Shown one piece after another: positions 54,192-60,104 of a stretch of 64,000 nucleotides of DNA. The stretch spans positions 1,334,001-1,398,000 of the forward strand of contig NZ_JBBNAD010000005.1 in assembly GCF_037996765.1 (NCBI RefSeq), read 5' to 3'. A program made the position numbers and the translations under genes. Below the pieces are notes generated by a model that made no database searches, had not been told where the DNA came from, and was given only the letters and a program-made list of their open reading frames with translations. Each line of letters starts with the position of its first letter. Position 1 is the stretch's first letter. The DNA is from Bdellovibrio sp. GT3 (GTDB lineage Bacteria; Bdellovibrionota; Bdellovibrionia; Bdellovibrionales; Bdellovibrionaceae).

Positions 54192-55385
54192 ATGGCGACA
54201 ATTCATCTGCTGGATAAGGAAAAAAACTTTTCGTTGGTTCTTGGCGGCCCCTTGTATCAGCTGCTAATCAAGTCCCGGCTTGCGAGTGCCGCTTCACAAT
54301 TGCTCCGCAGGCGAGTATTGTTTTTCGTAATCATAACATGGCTGCCACTGGCTTTGCTTTCGCTGATTGAAGGCAATGCCTGGGGAAGTCAGGTCCGGGT
54401 GCCTTTTATCTATGATATCGAAATGCACATTCGACTGTTGCTGGCGCTGCCACTGCTGATTATATCTGAAATAGTTGTCCACAAGCGTATGGCTCCCGTG
54501 GTCAGTCAATTTGTTGAGCGTGGAATCATTCAGAAAAAAGATCGGGCCAAGTTCGATGCTGCCATTGATTCAGCCATGCGCTGGCGGAATTCGATTGCGG
54601 CGGAAGTGGTGTTGATTGCTTTCGTATACATCGTCGGAGTGGGTATAGTTTGGAGATCGCAATTGGCTTTGGATGTTTCCAGCTGGCATGGCATCGCCGA
54701 TGGCGGGCAAATGCAGTTGTCCCTTGCTGGATGGTGGTTGGGGTTGATCAGTTTGCCATTCTTTCAGTTTCTTCTATTACGCTGGTACTACCGCCTTTTT
54801 ATTTGGGCCCGGTTTTTGTGGCAGGTTTCACGACTTCATCTGAACCTCACGGCCCTCCATCCGGATCGTTGTGGTGGCTTGGGTTTCCTATCTGCGATGG
54901 GCTACGCATTTTCACCGGTCTTGTTCGCGCAGGGCACAATGCTGGCGGGATTGATTGCCAGTCGTGTGTTCTTTGCAGGAGCAAAGCTGCCGGAGTTCAA
55001 ATTGGAATTGGCTGGTTTGGTGGGGCTGATGGTATTCGTCGTACTTGGACCGTTATTGGTGTTTGCTCCGAAGCTCGAAGAGGAAAGGCGCAAAGGCGCC
55101 CGCGCCTATGGAACTCTTGCTAGCAATTACATACGGGAATTTCAGCAGAAATGGATGATGGGTCAATCGCCAGATAAGGAAACGCTGGTGGGGAGTGCTG
55201 ACATCCAGTCTTTGGCGGATTTGGGTGGCAGCTTTGATGTCATCAAAGAGATGAAAGTCTTTCCATTTAATCTGCGCACAGTGATTCAGTTAAGCATTGC
55301 AACATTGCTCCCGGTGGCCCCATTGCTATTAACAATGTTTTCACTCGAGGAGCTGTTGCAAAGACTGCTGAGCATGGTGCTTTAA
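54192..55385 (+). CDS. Multi-spanning membrane protein of unknown function
   Basis: 397 residues with about six transmembrane segments: near 43-62, 82-98, 135-155, 180-200, 235-265 and 272-290, with a last one near 370-390. The loop HLNLTALHPDRCGGLGFLSAMGYAFSPVLF is a conserved-looking feature seen in related uncharacterised bacterial proteins; a long cytosolic or periplasmic loop (about 293-355) precedes the last helix. I do not know the function. It stands alone and abuts the convergent C45-type gene. Confidence 0.75.
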   Translation: MATIHLLDKEKNFSLVLGGPLYQLLIKSRLASAASQLLRRRVLFFVIITWLPLALLSLIEGNAWGSQVRVPFIYDIEMHIRLLLALPLLIISEIVVHKRMAPVVSQFVERGIIQKKDRAKFDAAIDSAMRWRNSIAAEVVLIAFVYIVGVGIVWRSQLALDVSSWHGIADGGQMQLSLAGWWLGLISLPFFQFLLLRWYYRLFIWARFLWQVSRLHLNLTALHPDRCGGLGFLSAMGYAFSPVLFAQGTMLAGLIASRVFFAGAKLPEFKLELAGLVGLMVFVVLGPLLVFAPKLEEERRKGARAYGTLASNYIREFQQKWMMGQSPDKETLVGSADIQSLADLGGSFDVIKEMKVFPFNLRTVIQLSIATLLPVAPLLLTMFSLEELLQRLLSMVL

Positions 55386-57368
55386 TTACTCCACCGTGCC
55401 CAGGCGAATTTCCGAATCCAGAACAATCGGCAGTTGTGCTTCGGCTGAAAGGCTTTTTTGCAAATCATAAAGCTCTTTCTGGCGAGGATACCTGGCAATC
55501 AAAGTTGCCAAGGTCTCTTGGGCGCGCAATCTGAAGTTACCCTGGGCCACGCGTGATTGCAGGGCTTGGGGCTTTAGTGTTTCTGCTCGGAACTGCCACA
55601 TGTCCAACTGGAAGTTTTCATAAGGATGTAAGCCAGATCCCAAGTTCACCGCAAGGTCCGTCAAGCGTCTTTGCGATTCGATCAGGTCTGTGTAAGCCAG
55701 CTCGCGCTGACCATTTTGAATGTTAAGCGCTGCTCGTTGAATTTTGATACGAGCCCACATGAATTCGTAGGGAAACTCCTGGATGCCGTTCTGGGAAGAC
55801 ATTGATGAAGCTGTCTCCAGCAAACGCAATGTGCGATCAATACCGGCAACAGTCGCGTGATCGTGTTCGTTGGTCAGATATGCCTGAACATAATATTTCA
55901 TCGAGTCGTACCAAGCGGATTTTGTTGAATCCTCCCAAGCCTTGGTGACGCCGATAATTTCAACCGGAGATCTTTGACCAGGACCCAGTAGGCGGAAGCC
56001 GACAAAGTGGGAGCGGTTGGTTGGATACGTTTCGCCCACACTCATCCACCATTCTTGACGGGCCGGGGCCATCACATGAGTGGCGGCAGTGTAAAGCTTT
56101 GTGGTGGTGCGCCCAAAGGCTCTTGGTCCCACAAGCTCGTCACTGTGACCGCTGAGGCGATTGATCACCCATTGCGCATCAACTCTGCCAAAATCCTGAT
56201 TCAAGGTGCGCTCCACATGCGCCAGACGAGCACGTGTTTCAAGAGTTTTATTCAGACTGTACTCGTAACCTTCCTGGCTGGTTCTTAAACCCAGGAAGTG
56301 ATTGCTTTGACCCAGAAATCTGTTTTTGGTTCTGCGCGCTACCACGACTGTGTCGCCACTAAGCTCAATAGACGCGGATTCATCCGTCTTTGCATCAGAG
56401 ATAAAGAATGTCCAGGCGCCAAATCCTTTGCGAGATTGGATGATGGCGATGGCTTGATCCAAAGTGCGAGCCTTCAATAGTACTGAGTGTAATAGAAAGG
56501 GCGCGATATCGGATTGGCCGGGAGCATAGTGAATCTGAGTCCCTTCCGTTTGCAGCTCATGCAGGCTGACTGAAAGACCGTGATTATTGAAACCACTGAT
56601 GCCGCCGGCATAGTGCAGGCCCGCCGATGCGATACCGACAGAAGTGGTGCCGTTTGGTTGGCGGTTGATAACAATAACCTGATCCTGTTCAAAGAATCCC
56701 AAAAGACCCGTGTCGAAGTTACGACCATGAAGAAGGGCCCCATCCATGGAGCTGCTCGCAGAAGCACTGATCCCTGTGCAGCCCATTTTGATTGCTCTTA
56801 AACCTTTTGCGAGGATTTTGAAGGGCTTTACCAGTGCACTCCCGATAAAATAGGGGGCGCAGGAAGCAAAAAGCTGCTTCTTCATTTTTCCCGGATCGTC
56901 CTCCAGCTGCCTTTGCATGGAGTCTGCAAAAATTGAAAACTCCACCATGTAGTTGCTTTCCTCAAAGTCTTTCCAGTCGACTTTGCTGCCCGCAGCTTTG
57001 AGTCCGCGATGCAGATTTCTAAGACCATCTTTGAACTCGTTAGAAACGCTGGCGCGATAGTTGTCGATCACGCAGTTTTTAATAAGCTTCAATTGATCTT
57101 TGGACTTTTTATCCAAAGAGGAGAAAGCACGTTCCGTGCGAATTTGAACGCCTTTCAGGACGCCGGCTTCGATTTCTTTGCGCAGGAAGTAACCATGAAA
57201 ATAGGCCGTTTCCTTATAGCCGCCGGTCAAATCCAGTACGTGTACTTTTTTTGCTGTGCCGGGCGCCTGGCAGACGAAATGGCGCTGGTTTTGTTGTTGA
57301 TTTTGCAAAATGCAATTGGCAAAAGCAGCTCCGGGAGCCAGTAACAGAATCATGATTAGCAGTTTCAT
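55386..57368 (-). CDS. Secreted C45-type autoproteolytic amide hydrolase / acyltransferase
   Basis: 660 residues with a signal peptide (MKLLIMILLLAPGAAFA). Residues about 20-196 look like a propeptide. Cys197 in the sequence KMGCTGISASASSSMDGALLHGRNFD matches the N-terminal-nucleophile start of C45/acyl-coenzyme A:6-aminopenicillanate acyltransferase-like and ceramidase/bile-hydrolase-like enzymes, which cleave themselves to expose the Cys and then hydrolyse amide bonds. Further family features: GISGFNNHGLSVSLHEL, then a catalytic-type N-R-F-LGQSNHF segment. The C-terminal 200 residues are a helical extension. The start at 57368 has GGAGATTCT and overlaps the LysE stop by four bases (ATGA). 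Predicted location: periplasm or outside. Confidence 0.85.
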   Translation of the reverse strand: MKLLIMILLLAPGAAFANCILQNQQQNQRHFVCQAPGTAKKVHVLDLTGGYKETAYFHGYFLRKEIEAGVLKGVQIRTERAFSSLDKKSKDQLKLIKNCVIDNYRASVSNEFKDGLRNLHRGLKAAGSKVDWKDFEESNYMVEFSIFADSMQRQLEDDPGKMKKQLFASCAPYFIGSALVKPFKILAKGLRAIKMGCTGISASASSSMDGALLHGRNFDTGLLGFFEQDQVIVINRQPNGTTSVGIASAGLHYAGGISGFNNHGLSVSLHELQTEGTQIHYAPGQSDIAPFLLHSVLLKARTLDQAIAIIQSRKGFGAWTFFISDAKTDESASIELSGDTVVVARRTKNRFLGQSNHFLGLRTSQEGYEYSLNKTLETRARLAHVERTLNQDFGRVDAQWVINRLSGHSDELVGPRAFGRTTTKLYTAATHVMAPARQEWWMSVGETYPTNRSHFVGFRLLGPGQRSPVEIIGVTKAWEDSTKSAWYDSMKYYVQAYLTNEHDHATVAGIDRTLRLLETASSMSSQNGIQEFPYEFMWARIKIQRAALNIQNGQRELAYTDLIESQRRLTDLAVNLGSGLHPYENFQLDMWQFRAETLKPQALQSRVAQGNFRLRAQETLATLIARYPRQKELYDLQKSLSAEAQLPIVLDSEIRLGTVE

Positions 57369-57931
57369 AGAATCTCCATGGAAAGATAAACGGAAAAGCA
57401 GAAGAATCCGCAAGCTGCGACGACTTCAATTTTTCTTAAGATTTTTTTAATGGGACCGTGCAATCTGTTTAAGCTCCATAATAGAGCCATAAAGCTTGCC
57501 ACAAAGGTCAGCACGTAGGTGGAAACACCCAGTAAAAGGGTGTTTGTTTCCAGCGCATGTGAAAACAGACCGGCATAGATAAACACCAGATGAAAATTAG
57601 AAAGCGTCAGAGCCAGGCTCTTTCTAAATCCCGTATCGGGGGTTTGGATCGAGGACGTCGGTGATTTGGAAAAGATCACGTGTACTGAAAAGATCAACAA
57701 AGCCAAAGCTGTTAGAAGTGTGAGCAGGTTTTTAAACCAATGCAGGTGCAACAAGGGACTGCGTAACAGGGCTGCTGCTAAAAGAATGTAAATAAGATCC
57801 CCCAGCAGGAAGCCTGCTATCGAGGACCACGGCCATGATCTGCGGGAGACCAGGCTGCGAATGATACTGAAACTTGCCGGGCCCAACGCAAAGGCGGAGA
57901 GGATCCCGGTGACAAACATCGCAAGAATCAT
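57365..57931 (-). CDS. LysE/RhtB-family exporter
   Basis: 188 residues with about five to six transmembrane segments. The start resembles LysE/RhtB transporters (GILSAFALGPASFSIIRSLVSRRSW, with the G-P-A/G-P motif); these export amino acids or amino-acid derivatives such as homoserine lactones. The family usually has about 200 residues, so it is full length. Both ends overlap neighbours by four bases (GH3 stop at 57928-57930; C45 start at 57368), the tightest kind of coupling. Confidence 0.9.
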   Translation of the reverse strand: MILAMFVTGILSAFALGPASFSIIRSLVSRRSWPWSSIAGFLLGDLIYILLAAALLRSPLLHLHWFKNLLTLLTALALLIFSVHVIFSKSPTSSIQTPDTGFRKSLALTLSNFHLVFIYAGLFSHALETNTLLLGVSTYVLTFVASFMALLWSLNRLHGPIKKILRKIEVVAACGFFCFSVYLSMEIL

Positions 57932-59448
57932 TGTAAAGTCCCTGCTTGATCCAGATTTTGACGAATAAAGGACAGGTACTCCTCGGCCGTTTCAAAAGTC
58001 GTTTTCATTTTGAATTGACCACGGCTGCGATTTTTTTCGAAATACCCCTGAAGGTAGTCCGCATTCATGATTTGCACTTGAGCGGGACCCAGAACTCCGA
58101 CTTCTCTGCAGTCGCTGTAGTCGCCGTTTATTCTTTGCATTTCTTTTTCCAAATTCTCGGCCAGAGTATTGGCGTCAACATTCGCATTACCAGCCACAAA
58201 CAGAGTCCACATGTAAGTGGCTTTTCCATCTTCAGTGCCCGGAGACAGGAAGTAGTGACGTAGGTCCACGTTCAAGGACTTTTTGGTATTAAGGTAACAG
58301 TTCAGAATGTCATCATCGCTGACTTTTTCAGCAGCAAGGTTCATTCCTGTAGATTTTCTGCCGACGAACTCAAAAACCAAGTCGCCATTCACCAGATCAA
58401 AGCTGACCACGTCCTTCATGCAGTAGTGAATCATGCCGTTGGGTGTTCCTACATTCAGGAAGTAGGGCACACCCATTTCGATTTGGTGCAGTCCTAAATT
58501 TTGAGTTTTTCCTTCAAGCGGGGTGAAGGAGTAAAGCAAATCGGGATTCAGGAAGTAGCGTTGACGGCCATTCTCGTATTTCGCATAAGGCAGACCAATT
58601 GCAGCTTCTGTTGCGGCATAAACGCCGTAGTAGTTCAACTCGTGGCCGACCAGGCGGTCGATGCGGTCTTTGTACTGTTTGATGGGAGTTGCTGCATAAA
58701 CGAAGACCTTTAGGTTCGGCCAAATTTCGTTGATGTGCTTTCTTCCGGTTTTTTGTAAAACTGCTTCGAAGATCGAGATAATGTACGTGGGAATACCACT
58801 TACAACTTGAATGTCTTGCTCGATGGATTCATTTATTAGCAATTCAATTTTCTTATCCCAGTTTGAAATCGCCAAAACCTCACGGCTGGGAAATGTGTTC
58901 TTTGCCAGAACTTTAGGGACTCTTGTGGAAAGAATTCCGGATATGTAGCCGAACTTGAACCCGTTTTGGGAATACAAATACGGATCAGAACCAAATGCCA
59001 GGCGACCGGCTTTCAGAAGGTTGAGATCGGGTTCCAAGGTGGAAATCTTACTGGCGATTCTTTTTTGAGATTTGATGAACATGCGGATCATGCGTTCGTT
59101 ATAGGGCACACGTTTGGAGTCTTTACCGGAAGTGCCGGAAGAAAGACCAAAATAGTCGGCTTTGTCTTTAAAGAGAATGTCCTTATGACCAGCGGCAATC
59201 ATATCCACGTAGGGCGCATATTCATCATAACCATAAACGGGCACATGATTGACGAATTCTTCATAGGAATTGATGTAGGCCAGGCGCAGATCCTTATAGA
59301 GGCGAGTGCCGGTCAGCGCACGTTTCATGCTTAGGAAATTGCTTTCCTGTCTTTCCAGAAGATCCTGATGATTTGTTGTCATTCTGGAACCGTAGGTTTT
59401 CAGGTAAGTTTGCCCCAGGGAATGGACGACATGATTTACTGCGAACAT
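57928..59448 (-). CDS. GH3-family acyl-acid amido synthetase-like adenylating enzyme
   Basis: 506 residues, cytosolic, no signal. The GH3 ATP-binding motif I is SSGTSGKDSK (103-112, from YFGLSSGTSG). The motif II-like region is YYGVYAATE (273-281). The rest follows GH3 layout: LAFGSDPYLY, then GIPTYIISIFEAV. GH3 enzymes adenylate a carboxylic acid and join it to an amino acid or amine. Bacterial members are largely uncharacterised. AAGGAG precedes the ATG. It is the first gene of a three-gene operon with the LysE exporter and C45-type hydrolase, and is divergent from a TetR-type gene. Confidence 0.9.
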   Translation of the reverse strand: MFAVNHVVHSLGQTYLKTYGSRMTTNHQDLLERQESNFLSMKRALTGTRLYKDLRLAYINSYEEFVNHVPVYGYDEYAPYVDMIAAGHKDILFKDKADYFGLSSGTSGKDSKRVPYNERMIRMFIKSQKRIASKISTLEPDLNLLKAGRLAFGSDPYLYSQNGFKFGYISGILSTRVPKVLAKNTFPSREVLAISNWDKKIELLINESIEQDIQVVSGIPTYIISIFEAVLQKTGRKHINEIWPNLKVFVYAATPIKQYKDRIDRLVGHELNYYGVYAATEAAIGLPYAKYENGRQRYFLNPDLLYSFTPLEGKTQNLGLHQIEMGVPYFLNVGTPNGMIHYCMKDVVSFDLVNGDLVFEFVGRKSTGMNLAAEKVSDDDILNCYLNTKKSLNVDLRHYFLSPGTEDGKATYMWTLFVAGNANVDANTLAENLEKEMQRINGDYSDCREVGVLGPAQVQIMNADYLQGYFEKNRSRGQFKMKTTFETAEEYLSFIRQNLDQAGTLQ

Positions 59449-59591
59449 TAGGATCTCCTTTGTTTGAATAAAAGCAATCTATTCAGAAACAAAGTGTTTG
59501 TCCCGTGTTCGCGTTGACAGTATTGGGCACTTTCTGTCGAAATCGGGAGCTTTCATTGACAGAATTCGGGGAGAGTTGTCAAAATTGCTGT
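59449..59591. promoter_or_regulatory. Divergent promoter/operator region with four TTGACA/TGTCAA-like half-sites
   Basis: Half-sites: TTGACAG (59514-59520), CTGTCGA (59534-59540), TTGACAG (59556-59562), TGTCAA (59577-59582). They alternate in orientation at 20-22 bp spacing, about two helical turns. TTGACA at 59556 could also be a -35 with CAAAAT (59580-59585), 18 bp away, giving transcription at about the regulator's ATG. Confidence 0.55.
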
Positions 59592-60104
59592 ATGGCAACT
59601 CAATCCAAAGAAGAAATCTATTTTGCGGTCTGCAACGCTATCTTAAAGATGGAAGTGGCCAAGGGTCATTTGCAGTGGACTCTGTCTGATGTTTCTCGTG
59701 AATCCAATGTCACGCGTTCATTGATTTACTATTACTTTGGTAAAGAGAAGGACAGGGTGTTGGAGGAAGCCTATAAATTCGTTATCTCTCAGGTTTTCAA
59801 TATCGAACGCGCCAAGAGCGTGGGCATTCGTGAGAGACTTCGGGATGTTTTGCGAGATGTGCAAAATATGCCGTTCCTGTTTGTTCTTTATTATTTGGAA
59901 AAAAATGCAGGAACCCAATTTGGCAAAATGATTCAGGAGGCAGAGGCCTTATTGCTGAAAGCCATGAAAATCGAATTCCCGGATCTTTCAGAAGTTCAGA
60001 TTCTTGAAATTTACTTGAAGGAACTGGGCGCGATTGCCTATCAGTTGCCGCCGGATAAGGTCGAGAACCTTTTTGAAAATTATATTCCGGGACAGGCGAA
60101 GTAG
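59592..60104 (+). CDS. TetR-family-like transcription regulator
   Basis: 170 residues. Residues about 1-55 are a TetR helix-turn-helix: EEIYFAVCNAILKM...HLQWTLSDVSRESNVTRSLIYYYFGKEKDRVL. The LIYYYFGKEK turn is the family signature. The C-terminal helical part (about 60-170) would bind a ligand. It is shorter than the usual 190-210 residues. ATG 59592 is chosen because the TetR domain begins there; the open frame extends upstream to 59505 without a ribosome site. It lies divergent to the GH3 operon and is a natural candidate for its repressor. Confidence 0.88.
   Translation: MATQSKEEIYFAVCNAILKMEVAKGHLQWTLSDVSRESNVTRSLIYYYFGKEKDRVLEEAYKFVISQVFNIERAKSVGIRERLRDVLRDVQNMPFLFVLYYLEKNAGTQFGKMIQEAEALLLKAMKIEFPDLSEVQILEIYLKELGAIAYQLPPDKVENLFENYIPGQAK

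Follow-up and report, generated by a model that had tools for sequence, protein, structure and literature searches.

A GH3-LysE-C45 gene cassette with a divergent TetR-type regulator in Bdellovibrio: a conserved gene unit and its putative role in N-acyl amide metabolism

GH3-type enzymes are numerous in bacteria (>7500 matches), and in the literature searched OlsH is the only characterised representative; it uses ATP to join free fatty acids to ornithine, giving N-acyl-ornithine (PMC12493201). The OlsH/OlsI operon of Singulisphaera acidiphila starts with this GH3-like ATP-dependent N-acyl amino acid synthetase, which contains the three GH3 nucleotide motifs, and further encodes the methyltransferase OlsG and the alpha/beta hydrolase OlsI (PMC12493201). 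In this study we analysed a 64,000-nucleotide stretch (the window) of the 3.58-Mb genome of Bdellovibrio sp. GT3, where an operon also starts with a GH3-type gene, but continues with genes for a LysE-type membrane protein and a secreted C45-type enzyme and is faced by a TetR-type regulator; none of these three is part of the Ols operon as described. We found no paper describing a GH3, LysE and C45 gene set in the open-licence literature, and none mentioning the locus tags presumed for these genes in strain HD100.

The cassette and its conservation in the phylum

Our analysis indicates that in predatory Bdellovibrio-type bacteria the four genes are kept, moved and controlled as a unit, and that they very probably form one co-regulated pathway, because of their co-occurrence, their order, a LysE-C45 fusion, the operators retained by scattered genes and the joint transfer of the cassette. 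All four genes were recovered where an earlier note on this DNA had placed them, with GH3, LysE and C45 on the minus strand and TetR divergent on the plus strand. Profile matches and coordinates bear out the GH3, LysE and C45 families that it had named, together with the four-base overlaps and the divergence of the regulator, whose TetR_N match is slightly below cut-off:

57928..59448, minus strand: GH3-type acyl-acid amido synthetase, 506 amino acids, first gene of the operon (Pfam GH3; NCBIfam OlsH, below cut-off; plant GH3 matches in the PDB and by fold)
57365..57931, minus strand: LysE-type membrane protein, 188 amino acids, six hydrophobic segments, presumed exporter (Pfam LysE; orthologs)
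55386..57368, minus strand: secreted C45-type Ntn (N-terminal nucleophile) amide hydrolase or acyltransferase, 660 amino acids (NF040521; structure model)
59592..60104, plus strand: TetR-type regulator, 170 amino acids, corrected start (TetR_N match; start conserved in relatives)
57928..57931, minus strand: ATGA overlap of GH3 and LysE, 4 bp (sequence; recurs in relatives)
57365..57368, minus strand: ATGA overlap of LysE and C45, 4 bp (sequence; recurs in relatives)

The earlier note had begun the TetR-type gene at an upstream GTG. This start would place the operators described below inside the gene, and the ATG at 59592, shared by relatives, is the most likely one. As judged from start and stop coordinates, the remaining Bdellovibrio cassettes share the GH3/LysE overlap, and most or all of these also share that of LysE and C45, so that the overlaps are not due to chance.

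Profile searches of 340 genomes of the phylum revealed 27 genomes with a close GH3 (E < 1e-90, followed by a gap to 6e-60) and 28 with a close C45 (E < 1e-130, the next at 5e-105), the cut-offs having been chosen once these gaps were seen. The two genes coincide almost completely: each of the 27 GH3 genomes contains C45, and 27 of the 28 C45 genomes contain GH3 (the exception is G085). Within Bdellovibrio (n=24), 14 genomes carry both genes and 10 carry neither. This distribution needs at least three changes on the rpoB tree, and the agreement between GH3 and C45 therefore does not reflect one inherited event, nor does it reflect many.

The order GH3-LysE-C45 with TetR alongside was observed in 13 of the 14 Bdellovibrio cassettes as well as in genomes G033 and G096, and a close TetR match is present in the 14 Bdellovibrio genomes with the cassette and in G033. 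The same order of the three genes recurs in seven genomes of group f18, including G171 (L091; Bacteriovoracaceae), with a TetR-type gene at the operon end in five of the seven and none nearby in the other two. Conserved neighbourhoods of this kind, accompanied by TetR, are what the earlier note had proposed looking for, and they extend beyond Bdellovibrio as far as Bacteriovoracaceae, with GH3 identity at about 40%. The remoter f19 and f17 genomes combine GH3 with C45 in other layouts. Among the individual variants, G133 has GH3 and C45 without LysE, in G126 the pair of C45 and TetR runs divergently from GH3-LysE, and in G147 C45 lies on a separate contig. A contig scan for relatives outside the phylum returned seven loci, all of Bdellovibrio, Pseudobdellovibrionaceae or Bacteriovoracaceae (the profile searches did not extend to other phyla), while a search of plasmids returned only GH3 proteins at ≤~25% identity and one C45 domain match.

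In most cassettes a LysE ortholog stands between GH3 and C45. The protein of the window matches Pfam LysE (PF01810) with 30.2 bits (cut-off 25.6), and some orthologs score below this cut-off (L042, L118). In G193, one uninterrupted frame encodes both LysE and C45 (811 residues; L126 5161-7596, minus strand), with the LysE-type part preceding the C45 part. A LysE profile built without the fusion protein matches its first 180 residues with an E of 1.4e-15, and the C45 match has an E of 2.8e-141. The last hydrophobic segment leads into a signal-peptide-like AVAAEA stretch. The charge distribution, in our reading, places the carboxy end of LysE outside, and the fused C45 would therefore face the periplasm.

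Shared operators and joint transfer

The TetR-type protein of the window scores 22.0 bits against TetR_N (PF00440; cut-off 24, E 1.4e-4), and the TetR-type gene beside the G193 cassette exceeds this cut-off (28.1 bits). The TetR-GH3 intergenic region contains two 27-bp dyads that are conserved in relatives:

59514..59540, no strand assigned: predicted operator 1, TTGACAGTATTGGGCACTTTCTGTCGA, pattern TTGACA-N15-TGTCRA (conserved dyad)
59556..59582, no strand assigned: predicted operator 2, TTGACAGAATTCGGGGAGAGTTGTCAA, starting 42 bp from operator 1 (conserved dyad)
about 59556..59591, plus strand: presumed TetR promoter, TTGACA, 18 nucleotides, CAAAAT, overlapping operator 2 (consensus match only)

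The starts of the dyads are 42 bp apart in 13 of the 14 Bdellovibrio cassettes and 53 bp apart in the remaining one, i.e. about one helical turn more. When the pattern was applied to the genome of the window with gaps of 12-18, it matched only at the two intergenic dyads from which it had been derived. In the control set of loci, a gap of 15 gave 52 matches and the other gaps 0-3. All 52 distinct sites (≤1 mismatch), those of the split G016 cassette and of the lone TetR gene in G035 (see below) among them, precede a cassette gene at distances of -60 to 330 bp, within about 0.91 Mb of unique sequence consisting of loci fetched by cassette genes. The promoter-like site ends 6 bp before the TetR ATG; the transcript would start about there, which suggests a leaderless mRNA.

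In the Bdellovibrio genome G016 the operon is split over three contigs: contig 10 carries GH3 with TetR, contig 5 C45 and contig 11 LysE, and each piece has an operator (TTGACA-N15-TGTCAA) upstream. The C45 gene is preceded by two sites 41 bp apart and the LysE gene by one, each with one mismatch and at most 140 bp from the gene; the chance expectation is about 0.0005 sites per 200 bp. The separated C45 genes of G147 and G126 each carry an operator site as well. Since the scattered pieces (G016, G147, G126) and the lone TetR gene of G035 keep their sites, the operator moves with the cassette genes. This is the strongest evidence for a single regulon comprising these genes and for the reading of the predicted site by this TetR type. 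In G035 the TetR type occurs alone with its own operator (L079 6120-8564), beside OsmC-like and MFS-like genes (names from sequence reading).

The cassette of the window also seems to have a different history from its host. In the rpoB tree, the genome of the window (G000) groups with G010, G011, G021 and G022, all of which are without the cassette, whereas the GH3 and C45 trees group the cassette with those of the B. bacteriovorus group. The conflict is significant in the approximately unbiased (AU) test, with groups that were defined once the first trees had been seen: rpoB rejects G000 within the B. bacteriovorus clade (p-AU 2.7e-5), and the cassette rejects this clade without G000 (p-AU 8e-4). 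Moreover, the gene surroundings differ from those of the common Bdellovibrio site. The cassette therefore appears to have been acquired whole, and the lineage of the window most likely gained it as one unit. A search for a clean empty insertion site yielded none; in the flank, only the membrane protein at 54192-55385 has a counterpart in G019, and the rest does not.

On the far side of TetR, most Bdellovibrio cassettes adjoin a gene for an MMPL-type transporter with a fused LolA-like domain (L031 6046-9087, minus strand). This gene is absent beside the cassette of the window and lies outside the shared operators.

The two enzymes and the proposed pathway

Three further features concern the enzymes:

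59113..59142, minus strand: GH3 nucleotide-binding motif I, SSGTSGKDSK, residues 103-112 (read from sequence)
57318..57368, minus strand: predicted C45 signal peptide, MKLLIMILLLAPGAAFA, followed by NC (read from sequence)
56778..56780, minus strand: codon for Cys197, the presumed nucleophile once the chain has cleaved itself at Gly196|Cys197 (invariance and fold alignment)

By profile and motifs, the first protein is a member of the GH3 acyl-acid amido synthetase family. It matches Pfam GH3 (PF03321) with 87.8 bits (cut-off 23.6, E 9.9e-25), with the GH3_C domain above and GH3_M just below the Pfam cut-off. Motif I is common to OlsH and plant GH3, and its S, G, T and K are invariant across the 27 cassette GH3s, as are the key Glu and Asp of motifs II and III (YAATE, HYCMKD). 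OlsH is the nearest characterised bacterial relative, a distant one: the match to its equivalog NF052613 (NCBIfam) has an E of 4.5e-50 and 170.6 bits, against a cut-off of 620, which rules out the assignment of the protein as an OlsH lyso-ornithine lipid synthetase. Plant GH3 enzymes were the top sequence matches in the PDB. They were also the best match of the structure model (Z 23.6) and all of its top 15 fold matches, the model being of low confidence (predicted local distance difference test, pLDDT, 62.6) and serving only for family placement.

Distant GH3 proteins of the order adjoin a ketosynthase-III-like protein (L082, L084) or sit among acyltransferase, thioesterase-like and desaturase-like genes (L083). 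They would belong to other bacterial GH3 pathways.

The third protein is, by profile, Ntn fold and catalytic residues, a member of the C45 autoproteolytic acyltransferase/hydrolase family. It scores 99.7 bits against NF040521 (cut-off 85, E 2e-28) and 37.9 bits against Pfam AAT (cut-off 23.2). The signal peptide, which had been suggested before, is predicted from the sequence, and N-terminal signal-like segments recur in relatives. The model (pLDDT 78) is closest in fold to isopenicillin N acyltransferase (2x1c; Z 30.3, 327 residues, 3.1 A), followed by NAAA (Z 25.7) and acid ceramidase (Z 24.1), at 13-16% identity. In the fold comparison, Cys197 occupies the position at which the mature Cys chains of acid ceramidase and NAAA begin (residue 1), and the HGRNFD segment aligns, as a weak sequence match, with HGRNMD and HGRNLD, respectively. 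G196, C197, R216, D219 and N356 are invariant in the 27 cassette sequences. Cysteines 19, 33, 99 and 170 are likewise invariant, as expected of a disulfide-bonded exported protein. The fold neighbours cut or transfer N-acyl groups, which would fit amide cleavage or transacylation by the modelled enzyme.

The carboxy end T-[VA]-E (window 55386-55397) is kept in all 27 cassette enzymes, including the LysE-C45 fusion. In G145, a C45 relative (L138 6130-9931) follows a beta-lactamase-family protein at a distance of 41 bp and has no cassette operator.

The families, the co-inheritance, the LysE-C45 fusion and the operator-gene linkage were read from the sequence; the substrates, the direction, the repression and the ligand we infer. 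The cytoplasmic GH3 enzyme would spend ATP on activating a carboxylic acid (a fatty acid being the most likely one) and couple it to an amino acid or another amine. The LysE-type protein would carry the conjugate, or part of it, across the inner membrane, where the secreted C45 enzyme, self-cleaved at Gly196|Cys197, would break the amide in the periplasm or pass the acyl group to another acceptor. TetR would bind the paired TTGACA-N15-TGTCAA sites and keep the operon repressed in the absence of an inducer, which is probably the acid or the conjugate. We lean towards this function, i.e. the making, export and subsequent cleavage or transacylation of an N-acyl amide under one repressor. The make-export-cleave reading of the earlier note is thus partly supported: the evidence for a single conserved, co-regulated pathway is strong (co-occurrence, order, fusion, operators, joint transfer), and the proposed chemistry would fit the fold, the catalytic residues and the relation to OlsH. 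Nothing was found to support the prey-directed molecule which it had also considered. A prey-specific role is not supported, as GH3 and C45 are both missing from 10 of the 24 Bdellovibrio genomes; the main text of a 2025 predation proteome paper names neither an acylase nor GH3.

Several points weigh against the make-export-cleave function. LysE is the least conserved member of the cassette, and a search for its ortholog in G133 found none. Small amino acids, rather than lipids, are the typical cargo of LysE proteins. The fusion to C45 is present in one genome only (G193), the sequence scanned for operators was enriched in them by the way in which it was fetched, and the GH3 model is of low confidence. 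Furthermore, because the OlsH match is far below its cut-off, ornithine and a fatty acid are not implied as substrates.

The usual LysE cargo also fits a pathway running in reverse, for salvage or defence, as do the secreted amidase fold and the patchy presence among predators. Here, the periplasmic C45 would cleave external N-acyl amides (e.g. prey aminolipids or N-acyl signals), the LysE-type protein would export surplus amino acid, GH3 would re-conjugate or detoxify the acid, and TetR would sense it. Such a scheme does not require the one-to-one pairing of GH3 and C45 or the LysE-C45 fusion, though it is compatible with both, and we consider it unlikely. Only slightly better placed, and still rather doubtful, is the possibility that an N-acyl amino acid serves as an acyl carrier across the inner membrane, loaded by GH3, delivered by the LysE-type protein and unloaded by C45 onto a periplasmic or envelope acceptor, with the amino acid recycled. 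In its favour are the fusion of LysE to C45 in one lineage and the acyltransferase as the best fold match of C45; if true, it would be an ATP-driven acylation outside the cytoplasm, free of coenzyme A and acyl carrier protein. The same fold match, the distant relation of GH3 to OlsH, which starts ornithine-lipid synthesis, and the MMPL-LolA-like fusion beside TetR in most Bdellovibrio could also point to a membrane aminolipid pathway, in which a lyso-aminolipid produced by GH3 is flipped by LysE, and C45, acting as an acyltransferase in place of OlsI, completes or remodels an envelope lipid. However, OlsI is an alpha/beta hydrolase and not C45, Ntn enzymes of the C45 fold usually break amides, and the MMPL-LolA gene has neither a place beside the cassette of the window nor a share in its operators; this pathway seems quite improbable. 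That the genes have separate functions and are neighbours by chance, as their separation in G016 and G147 might suggest, is very improbable indeed: it conflicts with the co-occurrence and the LysE-C45 fusion and is nearly refuted by the operators which the scattered pieces keep.

Comparison with known systems

In this cassette a GH3 enzyme comes with defined partners, an order of compartments and a regulator whose operator can be read, so that the product can be hunted. The operator motif can also be used to trace additional members of the pathway in new genomes. Given the periplasmic partner, an amide that is cleaved or re-used is likely, in contrast to plain lipid synthesis. The plant GH3 enzymes (JAR1, GH3.12, GH3.5, GH3.6) belong to the same family by sequence and give the best fold match, but share only 13-18% identity with the GH3 of the window over fold alignments. 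Hydrolysis of plant conjugates uses M20-type amidohydrolases, in the place of which the cassette has C45. The C45 enzyme, in turn, shares the Ntn fold and the positions of the catalytic Cys, Arg and Asp with isopenicillin N acyltransferase, NAAA and acid ceramidase, but differs from these solved relatives in about 180 additional C-terminal residues and the T-[VA]-E end.

In the pyoverdine pathway an acylated amide is exported and the periplasmic Ntn hydrolase PvdQ removes the acyl group; the substrate is, however, a peptide made by a nonribosomal peptide synthetase, the exporter is of the ATP-binding cassette type and PvdQ is a serine-type Ntn enzyme of a different family. The Drosophila hydrolase Tan belongs to the C45 family itself. 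The Ebony/CarT/Tan carcinine cycle combines an adenylating ligase that forms an amide with a transporter for it and, in Tan, a hydrolase that cleaves it, but this is an animal system working between two cell types, with different ligase and transporter families and no operon (PMC4694695). The Ebony/CarT/Tan cycle is the closest functional likeness to the cassette and, among bacteria, the action of PvdQ on an exported acylated precursor.

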